From NCBI RefSeq assembly GCF_017377655.1, contig NZ_JAFREL010000026.1, forward strand, positions 1-64,000: a stretch of DNA of 64,000 nt. Reading direction: 5' to 3'. The notes under the pieces are model-generated. The model was not told the origin of the DNA and ran no database searches. It saw only the letters and a list, made by a program, of their open reading frames with translations. Every line of letters starts with the position of its first letter. The first letter of the stretch is position 1. Source of the DNA: Candidatus Enterococcus ferrettii (lineage in GTDB: Bacteria > Bacillota > Bacilli > Lactobacillales > Enterococcaceae). This document shows, in pieces, positions 19,368 through 38,067 of the stretch. The position numbers and the translations under genes are program-made.

Positions 19368-19400
19368 CGTCGCACCTGTCAGAGGGAAAAAGGAGAAATT

Positions 19401-21524
19401 ATGTCAGAAAAACAAGTATTCAAAACCACTTGGGGCGGCCGTCCCTTGCAAGTCGAAGTTGGTCAATTAGCGAAGCAAGCCAATGGTGCAGTCTTGGTTC
19501 GTTATGGTGATACGGTTGTATTAAGTGCAGCAGTTGCTTCAAAGGAAGCAAGAGATACTGACTTTTTCCCGTTGACTATCAATTACGAAGAAAAAATGTA
19601 TGCAGTAGGTAAAATCCCTGGTGGATTCATCAAGCGTGAAGGTCGTCCAAGCACAGAAGCGACTTTAACAGCACGTTTGATTGACCGCCCAATTCGTCCG
19701 ATGTTTGCGGATGGTTTCCGTAATGAAGTACAAGTAACTAACGTTGTTATGAGTGTGGAACAAGATTGCTCACCCTCAATGGCAGCAATGTTTGGTTCAT
19801 CATTGGCTTTGGCTATTTCAGATATTCCATTTGATGGTCCAATCGCTGGTGTCGATGTTGGTCGTGTTAACGGCGAATACGTTTTGAATCCAACGACCGA
19901 ACAAAACGAATCTTCTGACATCAATTTAACTGTTGCTGGTACTAAGAAAGCCATCAACATGGTTGAATCAGGTGCGAAAGAAGTTTCAGAAGAAGATATG
20001 TTAGGTGCTTTGTTGTTTGGATTTGATGCTATCAAAGAAATGGTAGCCTTCCAGGAAGAAATCGTCGCAGCTGTGGGCAAACCTAAAATGGAAGTTAAAT
20101 TGTTGCAAGTAGATGCTGACTTGAAGAAAGAAATCTTTGGCAGCTATTACGAAACAATGAAAACTGCTGTTATGACCGAAGAAAAATTAGCTCGTGAAGA
20201 TGAAATTGATAAAGTAAAAGATACCGTCAAAGAAGTCTATGCAGAAAAATTTGCAGACCACGAAGACGTAGATCAATTAACTAAAGAAGTGAAACAAATC
20301 GCGGAAGATCTTGAAAAAGATGTCGTACGTGAATTAATCACGATTGACAAAATCCGTCCTGATGGCCGTAAATTGGATGAAATCCGTGCATTGGATTCTG
20401 AAGTTAGCGTATTACCACGCGTTCACGGTTCAGGTTTATTCACTCGCGGACAAACTCAAGCTTTGTCAGTATGTACATTAGCACCATTAGGGGAACATCA
20501 AATTATTGATGGCTTAGGAATTGAAGATTCTAAACGATTCATCCATCATTATAACTTCCCTCAATTCTCAGTAGGTTCGACAGGCCGTGCCTTTGGTCCA
20601 GGTCGTCGTGAAATTGGACATGGAGCTTTGGGTGAACGTGCGTTGTCTCAAATTATTCCTAGTGAAGAAGATTTCCCTTACACTATTCGTTTGGTAGCGG
20701 AAGTATTAGAATCGAACGGTTCATCTTCACAAGCAAGTATCTGTGCTGGAACGTTAGCATTAATGGATGCAGGTGTGCCGATCAAAGCTCCTGTAGCTGG
20801 TATTGCAATGGGCTTGGTTTCTGATGGTGAAAACTATACTATCTTAACTGATATCCAAGGACTAGAAGATCATTTAGGCGACATGGACTTTAAAGTTGCT
20901 GGAACAAAAGAAGGTATTACTGCTTTACAAATGGATATCAAGATCCAAGGAATCACTGAACAAATCCTAAAAGAAGCTTTAGACCAAGCGAAAAAAGCGC
21001 GTATGGAAATCCTTGAAAACTTAACTAGCACTCTGGCTGCGCCACGAGAAGAGCTAAGTGAGTATGCTCCTAAGATTGAAATGATCAAAATTGATCCAGA
21101 TAAAATCAAAACAGTTATTGGTAAAGGTGGAGACACGATCAATAGCATCATTGATGAAACCGGCGTGAAGATCGATATCGACCAAGAAGGTCAAGTAAGT
21201 ATCGCTTCTTCTGATGCTGAAATGATCCAAAAAGCGATCAAGATCATTGAAGAATTAACCAAAGAAGTCAAAGTCGGCGAAGTTTATTTAGGTAAAGTTG
21301 TCCGTATTGAAAAATTTGGTGCTTTCGTCAACCTGATCAAAGGCAAGGACGCATTGGTACACATTTCTCAACTTGCGAACGAACGTGTGAAACAAGTAGA
21401 GGATGTCGTGAAAATGGGTGATGAAGTCTTAGTAAAAGTTACTGAGATCGACCGTCAAGGCCGTGTGAATGCTTCTCGAAAGATATTGTTAAAAGATGAT
21501 GAGAATAAAAAAGAAGAAAAATAA
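19401..21524 (+). CDS. pnp: Polyribonucleotide nucleotidyltransferase (PNPase)
   Basis: 707 residues. Two RNase PH domains (~1-230 and ~310-550, the second with [14 protein letters not shown] and [23 protein letters not shown]), a linking helical domain, then KH ([15 protein letters not shown]) and S1 ([18 protein letters not shown]) RNA-binding domains. It degrades RNA 3' to 5' using phosphate and can add tails. AAAGGAG precedes ATG 19401. The leader carries a long hairpin; no dedicated terminator is seen before the next promoter. Confidence 0.97.
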
Positions 21525-27672: not shown

Positions 27673-28053
27673 ATGATCAACAAAATTGATACGGCCAAGG
27701 CACCTGCTGCAATTGGCCCATATTCACAGGCTATTAAAGTTGGTAATACCTTATATTTATCTGGTCAGTTGCCTATTGACCCTGCTACTGGAGAGTTTCC
27801 AAGTGAGGATATTAAGGAGCAGACTGCTCGTTCTCTGGAAAATATAAAAGCTATTTTAGCAGAAGCTGGTACGAATCTTACTAAGGTAGTCAAGACCACG
27901 GTGCTGCTGAAAAACATTAGTGATTTTGCTGCGATGAATGAGGTTTATGGTGAATACTTTAACGGTACCTGTCCGGCTCGAGCTGCGTATCAGGTGGCTG
28001 CATTGCCTAAAGATGCCTTAGTAGAAATTGAAGCTATTGCAATGATTGATTAA
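27673..28053 (+). CDS. ridA: RidA-family enamine/imine deaminase
   Basis: 126 residues, full length. It has [18 protein letters not shown], the carboxylate-binding Arg103 in [13 protein letters not shown], and the conserved C-terminal Glu (VEIEAIAM). RidA hydrolyses reactive 2-aminoacrylate and similar enamines to keto acids and ammonia. Placement directly before dpaL, whose reaction releases 2-aminoacrylate, fits this job exactly. GGAGGAAATTTT precedes the ATG. Confidence 0.92.
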
Positions 28054-28075
28054 CTGACAGATTAGGAGAAAAGAG

Positions 28076-29284
28076 ATGACGGAACCAATTAAAGCTGTTC
28101 ATTATGAGCGGGCTAAGAACAGCGGAACAACCTCGGTGGAAGCCTTTGGTGCCAAGGAAACTAAAAAGATTTGGGATTTCCACCAAAGTTTTCCAGAATA
28201 TACCGAAACACCCTTAGTTAATTTGAAGAATTTGGCTGAGGAATTAGGTGTTGAAGATATTTATGTTAAGGATGAAAGCTACCGGTTTGGTTTAAATGCC
28301 TTTAAGGTGCTGGGGGGCAGCTATTGTTTAGCTTCCGTGATTGCGGATAAGCTGGCAATGGATATTAGCGACCTTCCATATGAAAAAATCAGCAGTGAAG
28401 AGATGAAGCAACAGGTAGGAGATATCACATTTGTCACAGCTACCGACGGCAATCATGGGCGAGGAATTGCCTGGACAGCTGAGCGCCTAGGACAAAAAAG
28501 TGTAGTTTACATGCCAAGAGGCAGTGCCCAAGAACGCTTAGAAAATATTCAAAAATTAGGAGCCGATGCCAGCATTCTTGAGCTGAATTATGATGATGCG
28601 GTTCGCTTTGCCAGCAGCACCAGCGAGAAAAATGATTGGGTCTTAGTACAAGATACCGCTTGGGAGGGCTATGAGGATATCCCGTTGCGGATTATGCAAG
28701 GGTACACAACGATGGCCAATGAAATAATCCATCAATTGCAGCAGGTGAAGCCGACCCACATCTTCCTGCAAGCAGGGGTTGGCGCGATGGCAGGTGCCAT
28801 CACTGCCTTCTTTGCTGATTATTATCCCGGTGAACAACAGCCGATTATTGTAATTGTAGAACCGGAAAAAGCTGATTGTCTCTTTAAAACAGCCAGTCAA
28901 GCTGATGGCAAGCTACAGAAAGTTGCTGGTGACATGGATACGATTATGGCCGGTTTAGCTTGTGGGGAACCTTGTACGATCGGTTGGGATATTTTAAAAG
29001 ATTATGCGGATGATTTTATTTCTATGCCAGATAATGTAGCAGCCAAGGGGATGCGAGTGCTGGGCAATCCTTTAGGTGATGATCCTAAAGTTATATCTGG
29101 CGAGAGCGGAGCTGCAGGTTTAGGGTTAGTTGCTGAGGTTCTTGAGAAGACTGAATTAAACTGGCTTAAGGAACAACTACAGCTTTCTAACCACTCGAAA
29201 ATTCTATGTATCTCAACTGAAGGAGACACGGATCAGGAGAGCTATCGCAACATTGTTTGGGATGGGAAATACCCAAGTGTTTAA
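28076..29284 (+). CDS. dpaL: Diaminopropionate ammonia-lyase
   Basis: 402 residues, fold-type II PLP enzyme. The Schiff-base Lys77 sits in RFGLNAFKVLGG, the phosphate- and substrate-binding motifs include TATDGNHGRG and QAGVGAMAGA, and GESGAAGLG lies near the end. It converts 2,3-diaminopropionate to pyruvate and two ammonia. AGGAG precedes the ATG, 22 bases after ridA. It is the metabolic core of the operon and supports the deacylase as the upstream step. Confidence 0.93.
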   Translation: MTEPIKAVHYERAKNSGTTSVEAFGAKETKKIWDFHQSFPEYTETPLVNLKNLAEELGVEDIYVKDESYRFGLNAFKVLGGSYCLASVIADKLAMDISDLPYEKISSEEMKQQVGDITFVTATDGNHGRGIAWTAERLGQKSVVYMPRGSAQERLENIQKLGADASILELNYDDAVRFASSTSEKNDWVLVQDTAWEGYEDIPLRIMQGYTTMANEIIHQLQQVKPTHIFLQAGVGAMAGAITAFFADYYPGEQQPIIVIVEPEKADCLFKTASQADGKLQKVAGDMDTIMAGLACGEPCTIGWDILKDYADDFISMPDNVAAKGMRVLGNPLGDDPKVISGESGAAGLGLVAEVLEKTELNWLKEQLQLSNHSKILCISTEGDTDQESYRNIVWDGKYPSV

Positions 29285-29312
29285 TTGCAGGATTGAATAA
29301 GGCGAAATGAAA

Positions 29313-29354
29313 GAGGTTAACGTGGGAAATTAACTTTCCCTGTCAGCCTTTTTG
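29313..29354 (+). terminator. Terminator of the diaminopropionate operon
   Basis: AGGTTAACGTGGGAAA pairs with TTTCCCTGTCAGCCT (some G-U and one bulge), followed by TTTTTG. Confidence 0.7.
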
Positions 29355-29468
29355 TGATGGATGATTGTGTTGAATCCTGATTAGTCTAATTTTACGAAGA
29401 GGATCAGTTAGTTAAAGCCCCGTTCATAGTGTGACCATACAGATAATAGAATATACTAACCTGCAACC

Positions 29469-29512
29469 AGAACAGTTTGTTTCAAGAAATTTGAAATGAA
29501 CTGTTCTTTTTC
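29469..29512 (+). terminator. Second hairpin with U-tract, upstream of the PRD regulator
   Basis: AGAACAGTT pairs with AACTGTTCT, with inner GTTTCAA/TTGAAAT, then TTTTTC. A TATACT at 29452 lies just before it, so it could be a leader attenuator or a second terminator for the previous operon. Confidence 0.6.
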
Positions 29513-29536
29513 ACGCTATTTATCATCCTTTATACT
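29508..29536 (+). promoter_or_regulatory. Promoter of PTS operon 1
   Basis: TTTTCA (29508-29513), a 17-base spacer and TATACT (29531-29536), 20 bases before the start codon. Confidence 0.55.
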
Positions 29537-29555
29537 AAAGTCAGGAGGAAGACCT

Positions 29556-31592
29556 ATGGATAATCGATTATCAAATTTATATAGCTTGCTAGCAAAGCAA
29601 CAAAGAAGATTCCAAATCAGTGAGTTGGCCGCTCACTTTCGCGTCAGTACTCGAACGATCTACAATGATATTGATAAGCTGAATGAACTACTAGAAACAG
29701 TCGGTGCTGCAGAAATAGTGATCGAAAAGGGACGTATTCAGTATGAATGCGAAATGCCTATCGACATTGAGAAAATCCTTTTTAAAAATAATGATTTCAT
29801 CAACAGCGATCAACGCATCAGAAAAATTCGTATGCTAGAGTCGGTCCTGCTGCTGCCGGACAATTTCAGCTCCGAAACATTACTGCAGCGAACGTTGGTT
29901 TCTAGAAATACACTGCTTAATGATTTGCGAGCTGTTCGTAAGGAACTGGAGAATAATGAAATTATTCTTGAGACTATCCCTTTTCGCGGCTACCGAGTGG
30001 TGGGAGAGGAAGCAAGGATCCGAAACTTCCTAGCAGCTACCTTAGAGCAAGACCCGTTGCTATTTGAAACTGAAGGCTTTCAAGCAGAGAGAAACAGCTT
30101 GGTGGAGATTGATGAGCTGATTGAGAAAATTTGCAATGAGATCGGTATTCAGTTAAGTGATGAATCCTTCCAAAAAATGATTCTGCATTTTTGGGTAACC
30201 AAGAAGCGTTTGCAAATAAATAAATCCCTTAAGCAGTGGCAAAAAAAAGAGATCTATAACAAAGAGGAACAAGTTCTATTTGCGAACAAACAGGCAATAG
30301 AGGATAGGTTCAAACAGCCAATAACAAAAGCGGAGCTGGTATATCTAGCGAACAAGTTATCAGAAGCCTCGATTACTAACTTTCAGGAGCTGCTAACCGA
30401 TAAATGGCTAACATTTAATCTAATCGTTGAACAATTCATTACGGCAGTCGATCAAGATTTTCCCCAAATCGATTTTACGACTGACCAAAAGCTTTATAAA
30501 GGTTTGTTAAATCATCTGCGTCCTGCCTACAAACGAACCTTGGCTGGTGAATCTATTGAAAATCCCATGTATGAATACGTGTTGGAAAATTATCAAGAGC
30601 TGCACACCTCAATCCGCACCTATGTACCATTGCTGGAAACAAAATTAAAGGTGACGTTTACTGATCAGGAAATCAGTTTCTTTACTCTTTTCTTTGCAGC
30701 ATCATTGGAGCGTAATAAGTTCTTTGTTCCTCACAAAACCAAAATTGTGGTTATCTGCAATGCCGGAATCAGCACCTCAGAAATATTAAAGAGTAAAATT
30801 CAAAATACCTTTCATGTAGAGGTAGTAGGAACCTTTGGCGCACGGGAAGGAATCAAGTGGTTAACAGAAAACAAAGTAGATCTAGTAATTACCACAATCC
30901 CTTTGGAACTGAAAAGTATCCCGGTCGTTCGAGTAAATCCTTATTTATCAGAAGAAGACAGAGAGAGTATTCATCGATTTGTTAAGCCGATCTTTCGCGA
31001 GGTAACGATTGAACAGTTACTTACAATTGTAGAAAATTACGCGTCGCTATCTTTTCAGGCGACCAAAAGCCTATCTGATGAATTAACTACTTATTTGAAT
31101 TTACCAAAATCCCAAGAGAAGAAGGAGTATCAGCCTATGCTTAAAGAAATACTAACTCCCGACTTGATTGAGCTCAACTATGCAGCTGAAAATCGAGACG
31201 AAGCCGTAAGAAAAAGTGGAGAATTATTAGTGAATAGCGGGTTAGCAACCAACAATTATGTGGATGGTATGATTGAAAATTTGGAAGTGAATGGAACGTA
31301 TATAGTGATTGCACCAGGGATTGCGATGCCTCATGCTCGTCCTGAGGAAGGGGCATTGGATGTAGGCTTTAGCATTGTAACCTTAAAAGAACCGGTTGTT
31401 TTCGGCCATCCAAAAAATGATCCAGTGAAAATCGTGATTGGACTTTGTGCGATTGACCATCAAACCCATTTAAAAGCGTTGGCTGAATTGGTGGAAATTT
31501 TGTCCCATGAGGAAAATGTGGCAGGTTTTACAAGTGCCACTAATAAAATAGAAATTATGAACATCATTGAAGGGGGAAAAGAAACATGTTAA
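29556..31592 (+). CDS. PRD-domain transcriptional activator with EIIB- and EIIA-like domains
   Basis: 678 residues in the order of MtlR/ManR-type activators: HTH_11 (~1-55, RVSTRTIYNDIDKLNE), second HTH (~90-165), two PRDs (~170-385), a GatB-like EIIB with Cys401 (VVICNAGISTSE), and a C-terminal Fru/Mtl-type EIIA (~528-678) with His593 in PGIAMPHARPEEG. PTS phosphorylation of these domains sets activity according to substrate supply. ATG 29556 follows AGGAGGAAG. The EIIA part closely matches the free EIIA of operon 2. Operon 1 has no separate EIIA gene, so this domain may supply it. Confidence 0.88.
   Translation: MDNRLSNLYSLLAKQQRRFQISELAAHFRVSTRTIYNDIDKLNELLETVGAAEIVIEKGRIQYECEMPIDIEKILFKNNDFINSDQRIRKIRMLESVLLLPDNFSSETLLQRTLVSRNTLLNDLRAVRKELENNEIILETIPFRGYRVVGEEARIRNFLAATLEQDPLLFETEGFQAERNSLVEIDELIEKICNEIGIQLSDESFQKMILHFWVTKKRLQINKSLKQWQKKEIYNKEEQVLFANKQAIEDRFKQPITKAELVYLANKLSEASITNFQELLTDKWLTFNLIVEQFITAVDQDFPQIDFTTDQKLYKGLLNHLRPAYKRTLAGESIENPMYEYVLENYQELHTSIRTYVPLLETKLKVTFTDQEISFFTLFFAASLERNKFFVPHKTKIVVICNAGISTSEILKSKIQNTFHVEVVGTFGAREGIKWLTENKVDLVITTIPLELKSIPVVRVNPYLSEEDRESIHRFVKPIFREVTIEQLLTIVENYASLSFQATKSLSDELTTYLNLPKSQEKKEYQPMLKEILTPDLIELNYAAENRDEAVRKSGELLVNSGLATNNYVDGMIENLEVNGTYIVIAPGIAMPHARPEEGALDVGFSIVTLKEPVVFGHPKNDPVKIVIGLCAIDHQTHLKALAELVEILSHEENVAGFTSATNKIEIMNIIEGGKETC
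31137..31592 (+). CDS. Putative intragenic EIIA translated from within the regulator gene
   Basis: In-frame ATG at regulator codon 528, preceded by AAGGAG with a 9-base spacing. The product (151 residues, starting MLKEIL) would be a complete EIIA. The free EIIA of operon 2 (MLEDIL, 150 residues) begins at the aligned residue, which supports this start. Expression is inferred. Confidence 0.45.
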   Translation: MLKEILTPDLIELNYAAENRDEAVRKSGELLVNSGLATNNYVDGMIENLEVNGTYIVIAPGIAMPHARPEEGALDVGFSIVTLKEPVVFGHPKNDPVKIVIGLCAIDHQTHLKALAELVEILSHEENVAGFTSATNKIEIMNIIEGGKETC

Positions 31593-31858
31593 AAATCGTG
31601 ACCGTTTGTGGGGCTGGGGTTGGCAGTAGTATGATGATGCGTCTGTTTACCCAACAGATTTTAGATGATGAAAAGGTTGAAGCCACGGTTGATGCGGCAG
31701 ATATTGGATCCGTTGATCCTAACAGCTATGATATTTTGATCACCACTTCTGATTTTGCAGATACCCTGCGGGATTCAACTGCAAAAATTATCCGCATTGA
31801 TAATATGATGGATAAAGTGTATTTGAAAGAGCAATTATTAACAACCATCAAAGCTTAA
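31586..31858 (+). CDS. PTS EIIB, ascorbate family (copy 1)
   Basis: 90 residues, SgaB/UlaB-like. Phosphorylatable Cys8 lies in VCGAGVGSSMMM and the fold ends with the short helix DKVYLKEQLL. It accepts phosphate from EIIA and passes it to the substrate carried by EIIC. AGGGGGA precedes ATG 31586, which overlaps the regulator's end by 7 bases. Copy 2 at 35026 is about four-fifths identical by eye. Confidence 0.88.
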   Translation: MLKIVTVCGAGVGSSMMMRLFTQQILDDEKVEATVDAADIGSVDPNSYDILITTSDFADTLRDSTAKIIRIDNMMDKVYLKEQLLTTIKA

Positions 31859-31870
31859 GGGGGTAATACT

Positions 31871-33151
31871 ATGTCGGTATTTCTATATATTGTAAACAAT
31901 GTACTGAGTCAGGCAGTCTTTATTATTGGGATGGTCGTAGTTGTCGGAATGATTGCCCAAAAGAAATCATGGGATCAAATTTTACCTAGTGCCATTAAAA
32001 CAATGATTGGATTTACGATGATTAATGTGGGTGGTCAAACGCTGGGTGGGGCCTTATTACCTTTGCAGCAAATGATTTCTAAAATTTTCGATATGCAAAG
32101 TTTTTCAGCGGATATTGGAGCTGCACAAGCAGAGAGCCTGGCAGATATCGGAACCGAAATGGCCTTGATCTTTGCTTTTGGTTTCTTGATTAATCTATTG
32201 TTGGCTCGCTTTACTCGTTTTAAATATGTTCATTTATCTGCCCATGTCTCTTTTTTCTTTGCAGGTTTGATTGCCGCTTTACTAAAGTTTGGAACAGCTT
32301 TGCCATTTACTGGTATTGTAGCGATTGGCTCTGTTTTGTTAGGCTTATACATGACCTTTTCTTGTGCGTACGTGGCAGTCTGTATCAAGGGAGTAAAAGG
32401 TGCGGAAGGCTTTACCCTAGCTCATTCAAGTTCTTCAGGACTATTAGTAGCAACTTTATTAGCGAAAGCATTTGGCAATAAGGAACATGATTTGGAGCAG
32501 CTGGAGATTCCTAAGAAATTGAATTTTCTGCGGGAAATGACGATCGCCTTAACCCTAGTAATGACGGTGCTGTTCTTATTAATCAGTTTAATTGCAACAC
32601 CAAGTTGGACGATGGAAAATATTACTGGCGGTCAAGATATCATTGTCTTTTCTTTATTACGTGGTGTTGAGTTTGGCATGTGGATTACCGTCATTATAAC
32701 CGGGGTTCGGATGATGTTATCAGAAATTATTCCTGCTTTCCATGGAATTGCCAATAAGATTATCCCGAATTCTAAGCCGGGCTTAGATATCCCTTTACTG
32801 TTTCCTAATTATCCAACATCAGTCATTGTCGGCTTTTTATGCAGCTTAGTTTCAGGCTTAGCAGGCATGTTGATCCTGGGTGCGTTGAATTATCCAGTAG
32901 TCGTTTTTCCAGCCTTAATTCCCACGTTCTTTACTGGCGCTGCAACCGCGATCTTTGGAAATGCACATGGTGGTCGCCGAGGAGCAATTATGGGTTCCTT
33001 AGCAAACGGATTTATTTTAATTTTCGGTCAAGCCTTCTTACTGCCCATGGTAGGCAGCTATGCGCCAATCATGCGGATTCTTAGTGAAACAGATTATACG
33101 GTGTATGGCCCAATTCTAGGTTGGTTCCTGCAATTGTTTGGAGGCGCATGA
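31871..33151 (+). CDS. PTS EIIC, UlaA/SgaT family (copy 1)
   Basis: 426 residues with about eleven membrane segments. UlaA-family motifs are MINVGGQTLGGALLPLQ, FHGIANKIIPNSKPGLDIP and IFGNAHGGRRGAIMG. Known members carry L-ascorbate, but the family also holds uncharacterised transporters. Absence of ascorbate-degrading genes (UlaD, UlaE, UlaF types) and linkage to a TrpA-like protein argue against ascorbate here. GGGGG precedes the ATG. It ends in a TGATG overlap with the next gene. Confidence 0.85.
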   Translation: MSVFLYIVNNVLSQAVFIIGMVVVVGMIAQKKSWDQILPSAIKTMIGFTMINVGGQTLGGALLPLQQMISKIFDMQSFSADIGAAQAESLADIGTEMALIFAFGFLINLLLARFTRFKYVHLSAHVSFFFAGLIAALLKFGTALPFTGIVAIGSVLLGLYMTFSCAYVAVCIKGVKGAEGFTLAHSSSSGLLVATLLAKAFGNKEHDLEQLEIPKKLNFLREMTIALTLVMTVLFLLISLIATPSWTMENITGGQDIIVFSLLRGVEFGMWITVIITGVRMMLSEIIPAFHGIANKIIPNSKPGLDIPLLFPNYPTSVIVGFLCSLVSGLAGMLILGALNYPVVVFPALIPTFFTGAATAIFGNAHGGRRGAIMGSLANGFILIFGQAFLLPMVGSYAPIMRILSETDYTVYGPILGWFLQLFGGA

Positions 33152-33855
33152 TGAATAACCTAGTATTGTACGTGACGATTAATTACCCGACGCGGGAAAA
33201 TTTTTTTGAAATACTTGATGTTATTGAAGAGTCTAACGTGGGCTATGTGGAGATCGGAATACCCGTAGCAAATCCTTATGTTGATGGTGGTGTAGTGCGG
33301 AAGACCCAAGAGCAGGTGTATCCCACATTAACGCAACAAGAAATTATATCAGTATTAGAAGAAACCCGCCGACAGTATTCATTTCGGGTAATTTTGATGA
33401 CTTATCATGAAGGGGTTGAACATTTTCAACTTTCTCAGATAGCCCGTACACTTTACGATGCGATCCTATGTGTAGATAAATGTCTGGATCAAAAAAACTA
33501 TACGGGTCTTGTACACACTTTTACCCATAAGTTAGACCAAGAAATACTGGCGGAGCAATTAACCAGCAGTTCGGAATTTATTTATTTGGTATCTGGTGAA
33601 GGAAAAACTGGAGAATTTACCCAGCTGCCAAACGAATACATTCCTTTGCTCGCCTATCTGAAACCAAAGACTAAGCTGCCGATATTTGTCGGCTTTGGAG
33701 TGAAGGAGTCGGAGGATATTACCAGTATACTAAATGAAGGGGCTGACGGAGCGATCATTGGATCGGAATTCATCAAACGATACGATGCGGATGGAATTTC
33801 AGGGATTAAGAAATACTTGCAGGTATTACAAGGTGCATTTGATAGAAGAAACTGA
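33151..33855 (+). CDS. TrpA-like TIM-barrel lyase in a PTS operon
   Basis: 234 residues, resembling tryptophan synthase alpha subunit. The segment VEIGIPVANPYVDGGVV retains counterparts of catalytic Glu49 and Asp60; YLVSGEGKTGEF and the phosphate-binding loops GFGVKESEDI and GADGAIIGSEF also match. TrpA splits indole-3-glycerol phosphate into indole and glyceraldehyde 3-phosphate. There is no trpB or other trp gene here, so it probably cleaves the phosphorylated PTS substrate, releasing G3P. GGAGG lies 6 bases before ATG 33151; ATG 33148 is an alternative. It is shorter than typical TrpA (about 260). Confidence 0.7.
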   Translation: MNNLVLYVTINYPTRENFFEILDVIEESNVGYVEIGIPVANPYVDGGVVRKTQEQVYPTLTQQEIISVLEETRRQYSFRVILMTYHEGVEHFQLSQIARTLYDAILCVDKCLDQKNYTGLVHTFTHKLDQEILAEQLTSSSEFIYLVSGEGKTGEFTQLPNEYIPLLAYLKPKTKLPIFVGFGVKESEDITSILNEGADGAIIGSEFIKRYDADGISGIKKYLQVLQGAFDRRN

Positions 33856-33928
33856 CGACTATAGTCAGAAAAAGAAAAAATAAATGGCTTTATGATTAAA
33901 AAAAGAAAAAAATTCTTTCATAAATCGA

Positions 33929-33957
33929 TTGACTCTTTCAGCAAACAAGCGTATTAT
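33929..33957 (+). promoter_or_regulatory. Promoter of PTS operon 2
   Basis: TTGACT (33929-33934), a 17-base spacer and TATTAT (33952-33957), directly upstream of the first T-box. Confidence 0.75.
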
Positions 33958-33963
33958 TTAAAA

Positions 33964-34228
33964 AAAATACATGTCATACAAAAGAGTAGTAACATGATTT
34001 TTCTTTCCAGGGAGCTGATGGGACTGTGAATCAGTAAGAGAAATAATGCGAATGGACTTTTGGACTGAAGCTTTGAATCTAAGTAGGAGCTTCCGGAAAC
34101 TCCCGTTATTGAGAAAGGCTGTTGATAGACGGCTGATAAAGAGATGCTTAATGAAGCATACAATGAGGTGGCACCGCGGATTGATCGCCCTCAAGTTGGA
34201 CAATGGTCTGACTTGAGGGCTTTTTTTT
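33964..34228 (+). promoter_or_regulatory. T-box riboswitch 1, apparent tryptophan (UGG) specifier
   Basis: Stem I carries the loop-E strand GAGTAGTAAC, an apical hairpin CTGAT/ATCAG, and GAA-TGG-A, placing specifier UGG at 34053-34055. The T-box ATGAGGTGGCACCGCGG is at 34163-34179; its TGGC pairs with a GCCA tRNA end, as in bacterial tRNA-Trp. The terminator GCCCTCAAGT/ACTTGAGGGC plus eight T is at 34187-34228. Uncharged tRNA-Trp should allow read-through. Confidence 0.85.
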
Positions 34229-34264
34229 GAATAAAAATCATAAACAAGAGAAGTAATTGGGATA

Positions 34265-34493
34265 ATAAAAATGACAGAAAGCTTCTAGCGATGAGAATGA
34301 AGCATTTTTTACCTGATGAATGGACTTGTTAGAGCATCCTTGAATACTAGTAGGGGATGACGGGAACTCCCGTTATAGAGGAAGGTTATTGCTGGATAAT
34401 CGATCAAGAGATGCTTCATGGAGCATATAGTGAGGTGGTACCGTGTGTAATGCGCCCTCAAGCTGGACAATCGTCTGGTTTGAGGGCTTTTTT
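34265..34493 (+). promoter_or_regulatory. T-box riboswitch 2 in tandem, same apparent UGG specifier
   Basis: GAA-TGG-A recurs with TGG at 34321-34323. The T-box AGTGAGGTGGTACCGTG is at ~34430-34445 and the terminator GCCCTCAAGC/GTTTGAGGGC plus T-tract at 34453-34493. Stem I is shorter and lacks a clear AGTA strand and apical hairpin. TGGT would pair with a G discriminator only by a G-U wobble. Confidence 0.75.
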
Positions 34494-34576
34494 ATTGGTT
34501 TGAGATGAATCACGAGAGGTATTAACTAAAAGAATGGGGAAGCAATCAACTAACTTGGAAAAGGAGAGAACGATTT

Positions 34577-35029
34577 ATGCTGGAAGACATCTTAACTGAG
34601 ACGTTAATTGACCTTAATTTCTCAGCAAACAACCGCGAAGAAGCTATGCGAAGAAGTGGCGAATTATTAGTTGAAAATGGCTTCGCAACCACTAATTATA
34701 TTGAAGGTATGTTGAAAAATGTGGAAGAAAATGGTACCTATATTGTGATTGCACCGGGGATTGCAATGCCTCATGCGCGACCAGAGGAGGGAGCTTTAGC
34801 AGCGGGAATCAGCCTAGTAACGTTAAGAAAGCCAGTTGTTTTTGGCCATCCCAAAAACGATCCGGTGAAGATTGTGATGGGACTTTGTGCAACTGATCAG
34901 CAGACTCATTTAGAAGCACTGGTGTCATTAGTAGATGTTCTGTCACAGGAAGGAAAAATTGAACAGTTTTTAGCAGCTGAACAAGCGAAAGACATTTTGA
35001 CTATTATTAAAGGGGGAAATAGAAAATGA
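34577..35029 (+). CDS. PTS EIIA, Fru/Mtl type (free copy, operon 2)
   Basis: 150 residues with active His66 in PGIAMPHARPEEG. It aligns along its whole length with the C-terminal domain of the PRD regulator at 29556, so one probably arose from the other. It carries phosphate from HPr to the EIIB encoded next, which overlaps by ATGA. AAGGAGAG precedes the ATG. Controlled by the tandem T-boxes. Confidence 0.88.
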   Translation: MLEDILTETLIDLNFSANNREEAMRRSGELLVENGFATTNYIEGMLKNVEENGTYIVIAPGIAMPHARPEEGALAAGISLVTLRKPVVFGHPKNDPVKIVMGLCATDQQTHLEALVSLVDVLSQEGKIEQFLAAEQAKDILTIIKGGNRK

Positions 35030-35298
35030 TTAAGGTTGTAACGGTTTGTGGAGCTGGGGTAGGCAGCAGTATGATGATGCGATTGTTTGCTCAACAGATT
35101 TTAGATGCGGAAGGAATTGAGGCGGAGGTTGATGCCTCAGATATTGGATCGGTGGATCCTAATAATTATGATATCTTAATCACCACGTCTGATTTTGCAG
35201 AAACCTTGCGAGAAACAAGTGCTATAATTATTCGTATTGACAATATGATGGATAAAGCGTATTTAAAAAATCAATTGCTAAAAACGATTAATGGATAA
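35026..35298 (+). CDS. PTS EIIB, ascorbate family (copy 2)
   Basis: 90 residues; Cys8 in VCGAGVGSSMMM. Paralogue of the protein at 31586, with the same length and motifs. AGGGGGA precedes the ATG, which overlaps the EIIA stop. With EIIA and EIIC it forms a complete transporter. Confidence 0.88.
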   Translation: MIKVVTVCGAGVGSSMMMRLFAQQILDAEGIEAEVDASDIGSVDPNNYDILITTSDFAETLRETSAIIIRIDNMMDKAYLKNQLLKTING

Positions 35299-35310
35299 GG
35301 GGGTCCGAAG

Positions 35311-36591
35311 ATGGCTGTATTTTTATATATCGTGAATAACGTACTGAGCCAAGCTGTATTCATTATCGGAATGGTTGTTATTATAGGTATGATTGCTCAA
35401 AAGAAGTCTTGGAATCAAATTTTACCTAGTACAATCAAGACAATGATTGGGTTCACGATGATTAATGTTGGAGGACAGACTTTAGGTACGGCTTTGCTGC
35501 CTCTTCAGCAGATCATTTCCAAAATTTTTAATATGCAGGCTTTCTCAGCGGATATTGGTGCTGCTCAAGCAGAAAGTTTAGCGGATATTGGAACAGAGAT
35601 GGCTCTTATTTTTGCTTTTGGTTTTCTGATTAACTTGCTGTTGGCTAGATTCACCCGCTTTAAGTATGTTCATTTGTCTGCGCACGTTTCTTTTTTCTTT
35701 GCTGGGTTAATTGCAGCCTTATTGAAATTTAATACATCATTGCCGTTTATAGGAATTATTGTGATTGGTTCGATTTTATTAGGTTTATACATGACTGGTT
35801 CATGTGCTTATGTAGCTGTTTGCATGAAGGGTGTAAAGGGTGGTGAGGGATTTACTTTAGCCCATTCGAGTTCTTCGGGATTATTAGCAGCAACATTTTT
35901 GGCAAAAACTTTTGGAAACAAAAATCAGGACCTTGAAGAATTGAAAATTCCCAAAGAATTCAATTTCTTGCGAGAAATGACGATTGCCTTAACCTTAGTG
36001 ATGACTGTGCTGTTTTTAATGGTGTGTTTGTTTGCAACACCAAGCTGGACGATGGAAAATGTTACCGGAGGGCAAGACATTATTGTCTTTTCCATGTTGC
36101 GGGGAATTGAGTTTGGAATGTGGATTACTGTGATTATTATGGGTGTACGGATGATGCTGTCAGAGATTATCCCGGCTTTTCATGGGATAGCAAATAAAAT
36201 TATTCCTAATTCAAAACCGGGGCTAGATATACCACTGCTTTTCCCTAATTATCCTACATCAGTGATTGTTGGTTTTTTGTGCAGCTTGATTGCCGGATTG
36301 ATGGGTATGTTGCTGTTAGGCGCAATGAATTATCCTATTGTAGTCTTTCCTGCTTTAATTCCAACTTTTTTCACAGGAGCGGCAACAGCAATCTTTGGCA
36401 ATGCTCATGGTGGACGCAGAGGTGCGATTATTGGTTCAGTGGCAAATGGCTTCATCCTGATTTTTGGACAGGCATTATTATTACCAATGGTAGGCAGCTA
36501 TGCACCAATTATGCGTATTTTAAGTGAAACTGATTATGCAGTTTACGGGCCTATTTTGGGATGGATATTGCAGTTGTTTGGTGGCGCCTGA
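35311..36591 (+). CDS. PTS EIIC, UlaA/SgaT family (copy 2)
   Basis: 426 residues, the same length as copy 1 and very similar throughout, with identical FHGIANKIIPNSKPGLDIP and GNAHGGRRGAI motifs. Differences concentrate in membrane segments near residues 150-165 and 230-245. This operon has no TrpA-like gene or regulator and depends on the T-boxes. Conservation of the substrate motifs suggests the same or a closely related substrate as copy 1. Confidence 0.85.
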   Translation: MAVFLYIVNNVLSQAVFIIGMVVIIGMIAQKKSWNQILPSTIKTMIGFTMINVGGQTLGTALLPLQQIISKIFNMQAFSADIGAAQAESLADIGTEMALIFAFGFLINLLLARFTRFKYVHLSAHVSFFFAGLIAALLKFNTSLPFIGIIVIGSILLGLYMTGSCAYVAVCMKGVKGGEGFTLAHSSSSGLLAATFLAKTFGNKNQDLEELKIPKEFNFLREMTIALTLVMTVLFLMVCLFATPSWTMENVTGGQDIIVFSMLRGIEFGMWITVIIMGVRMMLSEIIPAFHGIANKIIPNSKPGLDIPLLFPNYPTSVIVGFLCSLIAGLMGMLLLGAMNYPIVVFPALIPTFFTGAATAIFGNAHGGRRGAIIGSVANGFILIFGQALLLPMVGSYAPIMRILSETDYAVYGPILGWILQLFGGA

Positions 36592-36621
36592 GGAATGACT
36601 TGCTGCAGAGAAATAAATCGC

Positions 36622-36662
36622 AAAAAAGCCTAAAGATCAACTTTTAAAGCTAATCTTTAGGC
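36622..36662 (-). terminator. Terminator of the MATE gene
   Basis: GCCTAAAGAT and ATCTTTAGGC form a perfect 10-bp stem; on the minus strand it is followed by six T. It may also stop rightward transcripts, though the plus-strand tail is not T-rich. Confidence 0.75.
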
Positions 36663-36669
36663 CTTCAAA

Positions 36670-38067
36670 TTAATTGGTTGTGGGAAGTGGCTTGCGCTCT
36701 TCTTCTGGTAAACCAAGTTCTTCAACTTGTTGCTGACGTTCCAATTCTTTCAGTTTGCGAATGGCTTTGATCGTTGATGGTAATAGGACAGATACGGAAC
36801 CAATCCAGGCCAGTGGTGAAGCAAAGGCTGCACCAGGGTAACCATATAAACCAGTCAAAATTATCGCAGCGAAGGAACGCATTAGCAACTCCATAATCCC
36901 AGCGAAGGTTGGGATTTTTGCTTGGCCAAGGCCTTGCAAAGTGTAACGTAGAATAAACAGTACCGATAAAATTACGTACAAGGCTCCGCTAATATTGAAG
37001 TAGACCTGAGCCAATTGGAAGACTTGAGTTTCCCCTTTGTCGACAAACAAAGCAATCAAGTAGTGACCAAAAAAGATAACTGAGAAACCAGCTAACAAGC
37101 TGAACAGGATGTTCATAATCAAACTTTGCTTGATCCCAGTTAAAATGCGACTATACTTTCTAGCACCAAAGTTTTGGGCAGTAAAGGTAGCCATGGTAAT
37201 ACCAAAGGACATCATTGGCAAAATAGCGAATTGCTCAATTCGTCCTGCAGCGGCTTGGGCAGCTACTACATCGGTTCCTAAGCTGTTCAATGCTGATTGT
37301 AAAACAACGGCACCAATCGCAATGATAGAAGATTGGAAACCCATGGGTAAAGCAGCATTTAAGTGAGTACGAATCTCTTGTTTATCGAATGAAAAATGTT
37401 TCCGCCCAATTTGTAGTAATGGGATACGTTTGCGAATATAGATTAGACATAATAGACTGGCAATTACTTGGGCAATTACGGTTGCATAACCAGCACCAGC
37501 AATCCCAGAGTTAAATTTAGTGATAAAAACGATATCCAGAACGATATTCACAAGGACAGCCAGGGCTAAAAAGATTAACGGTGTTCGACTATCGCCAAGT
37601 GCACGAATCATGTTAGATAACAAATTGAACATCATCGCCGCAAAAATACCTGCTAAAATGATTGAAATAAACGTTTGAGCTTGATCTAAAATCTCAGGCG
37701 GTGTTTGCATCACTAACAGTAACGGACGTAAAAACAGCAGGCTCAGGACAGTAAGAACAACAGTGACAACAGTGCTGATCAAAACAGAAGTAGCAAAACT
37801 CTTACGAACGCCTAAGGTATCCTTGGCACCGAAGCGCTGAGAGGTAATAATGGAGAGACCCGATGTTAATCCTTGGGCGAATCCAATAATTAGAAAGCTG
37901 ACACTTCCAGTAGCTCCAACCGCAGCTAATGCGTCTTTGCCAAGTGTTTGGCCTACGATGATCATATCTATCATATTGTAAAATTGTTGCAAAACATTAC
38001 CAGCTAACAATGGGATTGTGAAAAACAAAATTAATTTTGCGGGATTTCCTCGTGTAAGTTCTTTCAT
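36670..38067 (-). CDS. MATE-family efflux transporter
   Basis: 465 residues, about twelve membrane segments in two MatE repeats. NPAKLILFFTIPLLAGNVLQQFYNMIDMIIVG at the N-terminus and AALPMGFQSSIIAIG in the second half are typical of DinF/MepA-type exporters, which expel drugs or metabolites using Na+ or H+. I chose ATG 38067 after AAAGGA; ATG 38085 is upstream without a good site. Monocistronic. Confidence 0.9.
   Translation of the reverse strand: MKELTRGNPAKLILFFTIPLLAGNVLQQFYNMIDMIIVGQTLGKDALAAVGATGSVSFLIIGFAQGLTSGLSIITSQRFGAKDTLGVRKSFATSVLISTVVTVVLTVLSLLFLRPLLLVMQTPPEILDQAQTFISIILAGIFAAMMFNLLSNMIRALGDSRTPLIFLALAVLVNIVLDIVFITKFNSGIAGAGYATVIAQVIASLLCLIYIRKRIPLLQIGRKHFSFDKQEIRTHLNAALPMGFQSSIIAIGAVVLQSALNSLGTDVVAAQAAAGRIEQFAILPMMSFGITMATFTAQNFGARKYSRILTGIKQSLIMNILFSLLAGFSVIFFGHYLIALFVDKGETQVFQLAQVYFNISGALYVILSVLFILRYTLQGLGQAKIPTFAGIMELLMRSFAAIILTGLYGYPGAAFASPLAWIGSVSVLLPSTIKAIRKLKELERQQQVEELGLPEEERKPLPTTN

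Follow-up and report, generated by a model that had tools for sequence, protein, structure and literature searches.

How a PTS transporter that is classed by sequence with the ascorbate (UlaA) family came to stand behind two T-box elements with tryptophan (Trp) specifiers, and what such a transporter would carry, are the questions raised by this locus of Candidatus Enterococcus ferrettii (the host). The window analysed is a stretch of 64,000 nucleotides, positions 1 to 64,000 of contig NZ_JAFREL010000026.1. The PTS behind the T-boxes is referred to as PTS2, and its upstream neighbour, a paralogous PTS operon, as PTS1.

Tandem T-box elements upstream of PTS2

An Rfam scan of the window gave two matches to the T-box model RF00230 (length 219 positions, gathering score 93) upstream of PTS2, T-box 1 with 117.6 bits (E = 2.3e-25) and T-box 2 with 107.2 bits (E = 1e-22). 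Both matches cover model positions 1-219 end to end, and no further T-box at or above the gathering score was present in the window. An earlier note on this DNA, made from the sequence, had described two tandem T-boxes in front of a PTS and had proposed this covariance search as a check. With both elements above the gathering score over the whole model, the description is borne out. The features of the leader are as follows.

33895..34496, + strand: homology to the promoter and tandem T-boxes that lead the trp operon, 82-86% identity to three trp leaders; extends up to 34509 against the host's own
33929..33957, + strand: promoter-like site TTGACT-17-TATTAT, a consensus match only (20 such sites found versus 20.6 in shuffles)
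33967..34195, + strand: T-box 1 (RF00230, Rfam), specifier UGG at 34053-34055, bulge UGGC
34187..34220, + strand: terminator 1, 15-pair stem with T tail
34232..34462, + strand: T-box 2 (RF00230, Rfam), specifier UGG at 34321-34323, bulge UGGU
34454..34487, + strand: terminator 2, 15-pair stem with T tail

The specifier context GAA-UGG-A occupies 34050-34056 in T-box 1 and 34318-34324 in T-box 2, so that the UGG specifiers lie exactly where the earlier note had placed them. It had also assigned each element its own terminator, and one was found for each. These two stems were the longest among five terminator-like sites within 29200-36800, a total that is unremarkable against an average of 5.5 in shuffles. 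The CCCTC 3' of each bulge is common to the T-box model and to the 15-pair terminator with its T tail, and in both elements of this RF00230 leader the antiterminator and the terminator are predicted to be mutually exclusive.

Relationship of the leader to the trp operon leader of the host

The host genome (5.4 Mb, 157 contigs) contains 28 T-box matches. One tandem pair precedes trpEGDCFBA, all seven genes of which score over an NCBIfam cut-off for their function. T-box 1 of the PTS leader was 85% identical to T-box 1 of the host trp leader and T-box 2 was 85% identical to T-box 2, whereas comparisons across T1 and T2 gave about 70%. These values come from rows L002 and L021, which are on the plus strand, as the minus-strand loci had been compared unoriented. 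The homology spans about 600 bases, from approximately 33895, on the 5' side of the promoter-like site, to 34496, just past terminator 2. Leader identity was 82.2% to the host trp leader, 82.9% to that of Enterococcus pallens (G005) and 85.7% to that of genome G019. The promoter-like hexamers and their spacing of 17 are identical in the trp leaders of the host and E. pallens.

In separate trees of T1 and T2 (nine elements each), the PTS copy clustered at 100/100 with the E. pallens-group trp leaders, those of the host, G005 and G019. When T1 and T2 were placed in one tree, the group of four T1 elements had support of 97/95, and T-box 2 of the PTS leader branched from an open fork next to elements of the E. 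pallens group.

Relative to the host trp leader, none of 48 helix pairs in T1 and none of 43 in T2 were broken, a comparison biased in favour of the PTS leader in that the helices were drawn on its sequence. Pairs changed on both sides numbered four in T1 and two in T2, and those changed on one side two and six, respectively. Among eight trp leaders, three in T1 and six in T2 showed no broken pair relative to the PTS leader. The others, all from the avium-malodoratus side, had 2 to 7 of 48 pairs broken in T1 (five leaders) and 1 of 43 in T2 (two leaders), which is at least partly explained by the alignment.

Taken together, the homology, the pattern of identities and the trees show that the whole trp promoter and tandem T-box leader is a copy placed in front of PTS2 with its specificity kept. 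This origin had not appeared in the earlier note.

The tRNA predicted to be sensed by the leader

The GAAUGG sequence is kept in all 18 related T1 and T2 elements, including the two PTS elements. The bulge is UGGC in 9/9 T1 elements and UGGU in 9/9 T2 elements. A tRNA-Trp gene was looked for in the draft assembly of the host and none was found; in two relatives, G001 and E. pallens, the discriminator of tRNA-Trp is G73. The UGGC bulge therefore fits by a Watson-Crick pair the G discriminator that the earlier note had expected for T-box 1. The UGGU bulge of T-box 2 would pair with G73 by a G-U wobble only, a point absent from that note. In Streptococcus suis, the mutation-tested Trp T-box of trpX likewise combines a UGG specifier with a UGGC bulge (PMC9382623). 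On the strength of the descent from trp leaders, the invariant GAAUGG, the UGGC-G73 fit and this parallel, the Trp specificity proposed earlier is supported, and the PTS2 leader is, as judged from sequence, nearly certain to sense tRNA-Trp.

In several other host T-boxes, GAA and the codon are separated by one base (those before what we take by eye to be valS, pheS and cysE, and the Met-type ones), and for this reason a specifier shifted by one base, GGA (Gly), had to be weighed. The discriminator of tRNA-Gly is U73, and the host T-box before a gene that by eye is presumably glyQ has a UGGA bulge. A Gly reading would need this same bulge; it was rejected on the observed UGGC and UGGU.

It is hardly credible that T-box 2 senses a different tRNA, for example tRNA-Met, which would turn the pair into an AND gate of two amino acids. 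AUG does overlap UGG within GAAUGGA, and UGGU suits an A73 tRNA, A73 being the discriminator of tRNA-Met. However, most Met-type T-boxes of the host read GAA-N-AUG, longer by one base, and an AUG specifier in T-box 2 was rejected on the loop, which is shorter than in these elements. GAAUGG is moreover identical in the eight T2 elements of trp operons, and UGGU also occurs in the Trp T-box of Carnobacterium iners. By our own reading, AUG stands at the specifier place in eleven of the 28 host T-boxes, and L010 and L019 are in tandem before one ABC-type gene.

PTS2 and the paralogous PTS1 operon

The PTS1 operon, which ends in a TrpA-like gene, was missing from the earlier note. The genes of the two operons are as follows.

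29496..31592, + strand: PTS1 regulator, HTH-PRD with a fused EIIA domain (EIIA part from residue 548)
31586..31858, + strand: PTS1 EIIB
31871..33151, + strand: PTS1 EIIC (EIIC-GAT, UlaA family)
33151..33855, + strand: TrpA-like protein of PTS1, 234 residues; catalytic Glu and Asp positions of TrpA matched in the alignment by E34 and D45
34577..35029, + strand: PTS2 EIIA, a homologue of the EIIA domain fused to the regulator of PTS1; DNA homology from one base before the ATG
35026..35298, + strand: PTS2 EIIB
35311..36591, + strand: PTS2 EIIC (Pfam EIIC-GAT, UlaA family), 89% identical to PTS1 EIIC

The DNA homology between PTS2 and PTS1 extends from one base 5' of the EIIA start codon to 8 bases past the EIIC stop (75.9% over 2028 columns). 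The compared pocket positions are identical between the two EIICs, which supports one substrate for PTS1 and PTS2, without telling which. The closest EIIC at a named locus to that of host PTS1 is from E. pallens (99.3%). In that species (G005, L091), the PTS1-type operon runs directly into a MATE-type gene, and the same gene follows PTS2 in the window; PTS2 is therefore an extra block at this place. A recent duplication of PTS1 and PTS2 was ruled out, since the synonymous differences between the EIICs are saturated (pN 0.06, pS 0.80). In the EIIC tree, PTS2 branches from an open fork within the Enterococcus clade, and either the gene copy or the leader copy may be the older.

Across 105 genomes of the family, a close EIIC (E up to 1e-120) was found in eight, with two copies in the host only; PTS2 was thus found in a single genome of the 105. 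This rarity is what would be expected if PTS2 and its leader were a relic without function, which we nevertheless regard as very improbable. The PTS2 frames are intact with pN far below pS, no helix pair is broken against the host trp leader despite 15% divergence, and stand-alone EIIA relatives exist in other records at 97%, 89% and 76% identity (the last from Enterococcus sp. AZ109). For a plasmid origin, no PLSDB match was obtained at the 'near' setting.

On the 5' side of PTS1 (27673-29284) lie a RidA-like gene and a gene for 2,3-diaminopropionate ammonia-lyase, unrelated as far as seen. The Rfam family rliD (a Listeria antisense RNA) also matched over threshold in the window at 19370-19552 (- strand) and in E. 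pallens at L091:17178-17361. The latter match overlaps the start of a gene presumed by eye to be pnp and may simply reflect conserved coding sequence.

The TrpA-like protein and its association with the PTS

The TrpA-like protein scored 105.5 against Pfam PF00290 (threshold 27) and 96.2 against the NCBIfam trpA equivalog model, under the cut-off of 102.35. The true TrpA of the host scored 194.2 on the latter and is 23% identical to the TrpA-like protein. An AlphaFold2 model of the protein (mean pLDDT 94.2) had as its nearest fold BX1 (PDB 1tjr; TM 0.89 by query and 0.81 by target), which was also first by sequence. BX1 is a plant indole-3-glycerol-phosphate lyase that works without TrpB. The aligned residues E34 and D45 correspond to E49 and D60 of TrpA in Salmonella numbering; among relatives of the TrpA-like protein the catalytic Glu was present in 27/27 rows and the Asp in 25/27. 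In its modelled fold, its catalytic Glu and Asp and its glycine loops the protein thus resembles TrpA and BX1. It differs in being 23% identical to BX1 and 18-26% to the listed TrpA structures, in missing two short stretches of true TrpA, and in having a PTS rather than TrpB encoded alongside it.

Scanning genome contigs yielded 49 loci, of which 29 (L105-L133) were taken at 33% identity or more before their neighbours were viewed. An EIIC stood beside the TrpA-like gene in all 29 of these named loci (in L120 as a 161-residue frame only), and EIIA, EIIB and EIIC were whole in 28. The regulator was upstream as in the window in 27; the exceptions were Helcococcus (L129), with a stand-alone EIIA and regulator-like genes elsewhere, and L120, where an intact upstream part is lacking. 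Among the 20 distant TrpA hits (21-29% identity), which served as a control and whose best match was true TrpA, 0/20 had EIIA, EIIB, EIIC or regulator beside them within the stretch examined. This control strengthens the link of the TrpA-like gene to the PTS. Going by the record titles, hosts of the operon include Enterococcus, Vagococcus, Carnobacterium, Lacrimispora, Virgibacillus, Bacillus, Helcococcus, Fusibacter and Atopobium.

None of the 29 operons showed a T-box at or above the Rfam gathering score, a scan that may miss weak elements (the C. iners element itself scores 92.3 versus 93) and in which L109 and L116 begin less than 260 bases from a contig end, leaving their leaders invisible. 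A word search for T-boxes at the 29 loci was insensitive, its laxer form recovering 18 of 28 known elements. The search for trpB covered 22 of the 29 hosts, and a close trpB (E below 1e-150) was found in 16 and none close in six (one of them a MAG). In those six, therefore, Trp making is not what the operon is for, and in some hosts it must serve a separate purpose, probably a catabolic one.

The EIIC was much more conserved than its TrpA-like partner (81% versus 47% between this Enterococcus, 31871-33855, and Lacrimispora celerecrescens, L111), and is far more tightly constrained than the enzyme. The EIIC of L127 (Roseburia sp. 1XD42-34) grouped with Virgibacillus and that of L119 (Paenibacillaceae MAG SIG288) with Lacrimispora, which may reflect misnamed records or movement of the operon between lineages.

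A second link to tryptophan in Carnobacterium iners

A sample of 395 genomes at the order level was searched for close EIICs (E up to 1e-110), and ten copies were found in nine genomes. Seven adjoin a TrpA-like gene, and in no case was a T-box seen in front of them. The three copies lacking a TrpA-like gene are PTS2, that of genome G206 and that of C. iners (G169); two of them stand behind Trp T-boxes, one being PTS2 itself. No Trp link was visible at the G206 locus. The assignment of G169 to C. iners is supported by its EIIA, which is identical in every residue to a protein (P0054) attributed to that species.

In C. iners the gene order is trpD, trpC, trpF, trpB, trpA, EIIA, EIIB, EIIC (L170:2674-9364 from the T-box on), with an overlap of 4 bases between trpA and EIIA. 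The products of trpD, trpC, trpB and trpA score over their NCBIfam cut-offs, and that of trpF has trpF as its best match, under the cut-off. The T-box before trpD (L170:2674-2919) reached 92.3 bits, just below the gathering score of 93, with E = 9e-21 in 801 bases. Its specifier context is AAA-UGG-A and its bulge UGGU. Both PTS copies behind Trp T-boxes are thus without a TrpA-like gene, and true TrpA is there under the same kind of control. Among 18 genomes of the family of C. iners, the EIIC was found only in C. iners and in G197, where it is accompanied by a TrpA-like gene.

No trpE or trpG match was found within the 28 kb read at the C. iners locus; anthranilate or a later intermediate may be needed by this organism. 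A gene that by eye is transposase-like lies 5' of the T-box and trp operon.

Comparison with the ascorbate transporter UlaA

The earlier note had spoken of an ascorbate-family PTS. As a family label this stands, the two window EIICs scoring 410.5 and 407.7 and those of C. iners and G206 415.4 and 404.4, all over the NCBIfam ascorbate cut-off of 380 (NF006919). It should not be taken to name the substrate. The window EIIAs (111.8 and 106.8 versus 187) and EIIBs (35.3 and 39 versus 138) are under their NCBIfam ascorbate cut-offs, and no ascorbate-pathway gene was present among the 8 and 6 neighbourhood proteins scanned.

The ascorbate contacts listed for E. coli UlaA are T86, Y87, H135, I136, Q139, H194, Q195, D314, I358, F362 and M410 (PMC6048161). 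The window EIICs differ at T86, Y87, I136, Q139 and Q195 and retain H135, H194 and D314, with I358, F362 and M410 unplaced; in addition, S59 is changed and R288 kept. Q139 and Q195 are also missing in 21/21 other UlaA-family paralogues of the genus, so the contact changes are not diagnostic. An aromatic residue at Q139 was considered as a sign of an aromatic substrate and dropped, as Y, F or W is found there in 21/21 of these paralogues.

Proposed substrate and alternatives

From these comparisons we infer how the T-boxes would act in the cell, what the PTS would carry and which reaction the TrpA-like enzyme would catalyse. The simplest reading is that the PTS product is the TrpA substrate, indole-3-glycerol phosphate (IGP), because the PTS copies behind Trp T-boxes are without a TrpA-like gene and true TrpA is in both cases controlled in the same manner. 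A PTS delivering IGP would therefore have to import indole-3-glycerol and phosphorylate its end CH2OH. Under Trp shortage, uncharged tRNA-Trp would pair in each element with UGG in stem I and, by its acceptor end, with the UGGN bulge. The two antiterminators would then form, and read-through would allow PTS2 to be transcribed together with the trp operon. The cargo of PTS2 would be a precursor of Trp that ends in CH2OH, with indole-3-glycerol as the likeliest candidate (or a similar aryl-triol); phosphorylation of that group would give IGP, which TrpAB would convert to Trp. PTS1, controlled by its PRD regulator, would also import this compound, and the TrpA-like enzyme encoded with it would split IGP into glyceraldehyde-3-phosphate and indole. 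A parallel for phosphorylation of an end CH2OH is provided by the ascorbate PTS, which makes ascorbate 6-phosphate (PMC6048161).

The full explanation, in which a copy of the trp leader drives PTS2, indole-3-glycerol is taken up as IGP and PTS1 carries a TrpA-like lyase, is given a probability of about one half. Several observations count against it. All four EIICs, those of PTS1, PTS2, C. iners and G206, pass the ascorbate cut-off, and the G206 copy has no Trp link. The TrpA-like protein misses the trpA cut-off. PTS2 occurs in 1/105 genomes, and 6/22 hosts of the TrpA-like operon without a close trpB speak against use of the compound as a Trp precursor there. The UGGU-G73 wobble in T-box 2 and the helix pairs broken against trp leaders of the other species group also weigh on this side, and the source of indole-3-glycerol for the host organism is putative.

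Alternatively, the T-boxes would sense tRNA-Trp and the PTS would carry ascorbate, a related compound or another ordinary sugar or sugar acid. Capture of the trp promoter would then have been accidental, and it would have been kept since a starvation-linked supply of carbon or phosphoribosyl precursors helped. The naming of the EIIC as ascorbate-type by NCBIfam, the restriction of PTS2 to one of 105 family genomes and the fact that the UlaA pocket changes are common to other UlaA-family paralogues are all consistent with this. We consider it unlikely while giving it real weight, as EIIA and EIIB fall under the ascorbate cut-offs, five of the eight placed ascorbate contacts listed for UlaA are changed (PMC6048161), and the neighbourhood, over the 8 and 6 proteins scanned, is without an ascorbate-pathway gene. 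Chance would also hardly bring one PTS subfamily together with a TrpA-like partner, with a trp leader and with a trp operon. Improbable in our view is a substrate that is a non-indolic triol (or a glycoside), for which the TrpA-like enzyme would act as retro-aldolase to give a product useful for Trp synthesis. The distance of the TrpA-like protein from the true TrpA of the host (23%) and the 6/22 hosts without a close trpB would agree with it. The catalytic Glu and Asp, the glycine loops and the fold are, in contrast, those of TrpA and BX1, and the C. iners operon sets the PTS beside TrpBA, whose input is IGP.

In a wider reading, the system would be, to our knowledge, the first PTS that takes up an amino-acid pathway intermediate. 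Indole-3-glycerol would enter as IGP, Trp synthesis would be re-entered near its end, and phosphoenolpyruvate would pay for both uptake and activation. The PTS would have been captured by the trp system at least twice, by copying of a leader in Enterococcus and by joining of the trp operon in Carnobacterium, each time without the TrpA-like lyase of the catabolic version. We hold this wider proposal tentatively, at somewhat less than even odds.

Relation to known systems and implications

Tandem Trp T-boxes on trp operons of Bacillota are known (PMC12452182; PMC2494555). They share with the present leader the type of element, the tandem layout and the specifier, the leader here being a copy of that of the host trp operon, and they differ in that a PTS transporter, not biosynthetic genes, would be controlled here. 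The Trp T-box of S. suis trpXYZ likewise has a UGG specifier and a UGGC bulge and controls an importer on Trp shortage; unlike PTS2, this is an ABC importer of Trp itself, and one T-box is described (PMC9382623). Transporters behind Trp T-boxes are tabulated as ABC and NSS (PMC2494555). The UlaA ascorbate PTS is of the same EIIC family by sequence and has EIIA and EIIB of the same type; it differs in the contacts, five of the eight placed being changed here, and in its partners, with TrpA-like or trp genes here in place of known ascorbate genes (PMC6048161).

A Trp T-box or TrpA homologue joined to a PTS was not found in the open-licence literature, judged by title and start of abstract among the matches listed. 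The statement of the earlier note that no Trp T-box before a UlaA-family PTS is established thus held within the open-licence literature searched.

The arrangement would extend T-box control to a PTS, and the T-box may help to indicate what a transporter subfamily now named 'ascorbate' carries. It is also a clear example of a complete promoter and tandem riboswitch being duplicated between operons while retaining specificity. Indole is a signal in gut communities. If the proposal is true, many Bacillota and some Actinomycetota would have, in the PTS-lyase operon, a salvage and catabolic route for indole-3-glycerol, and indole would be released without tryptophanase.
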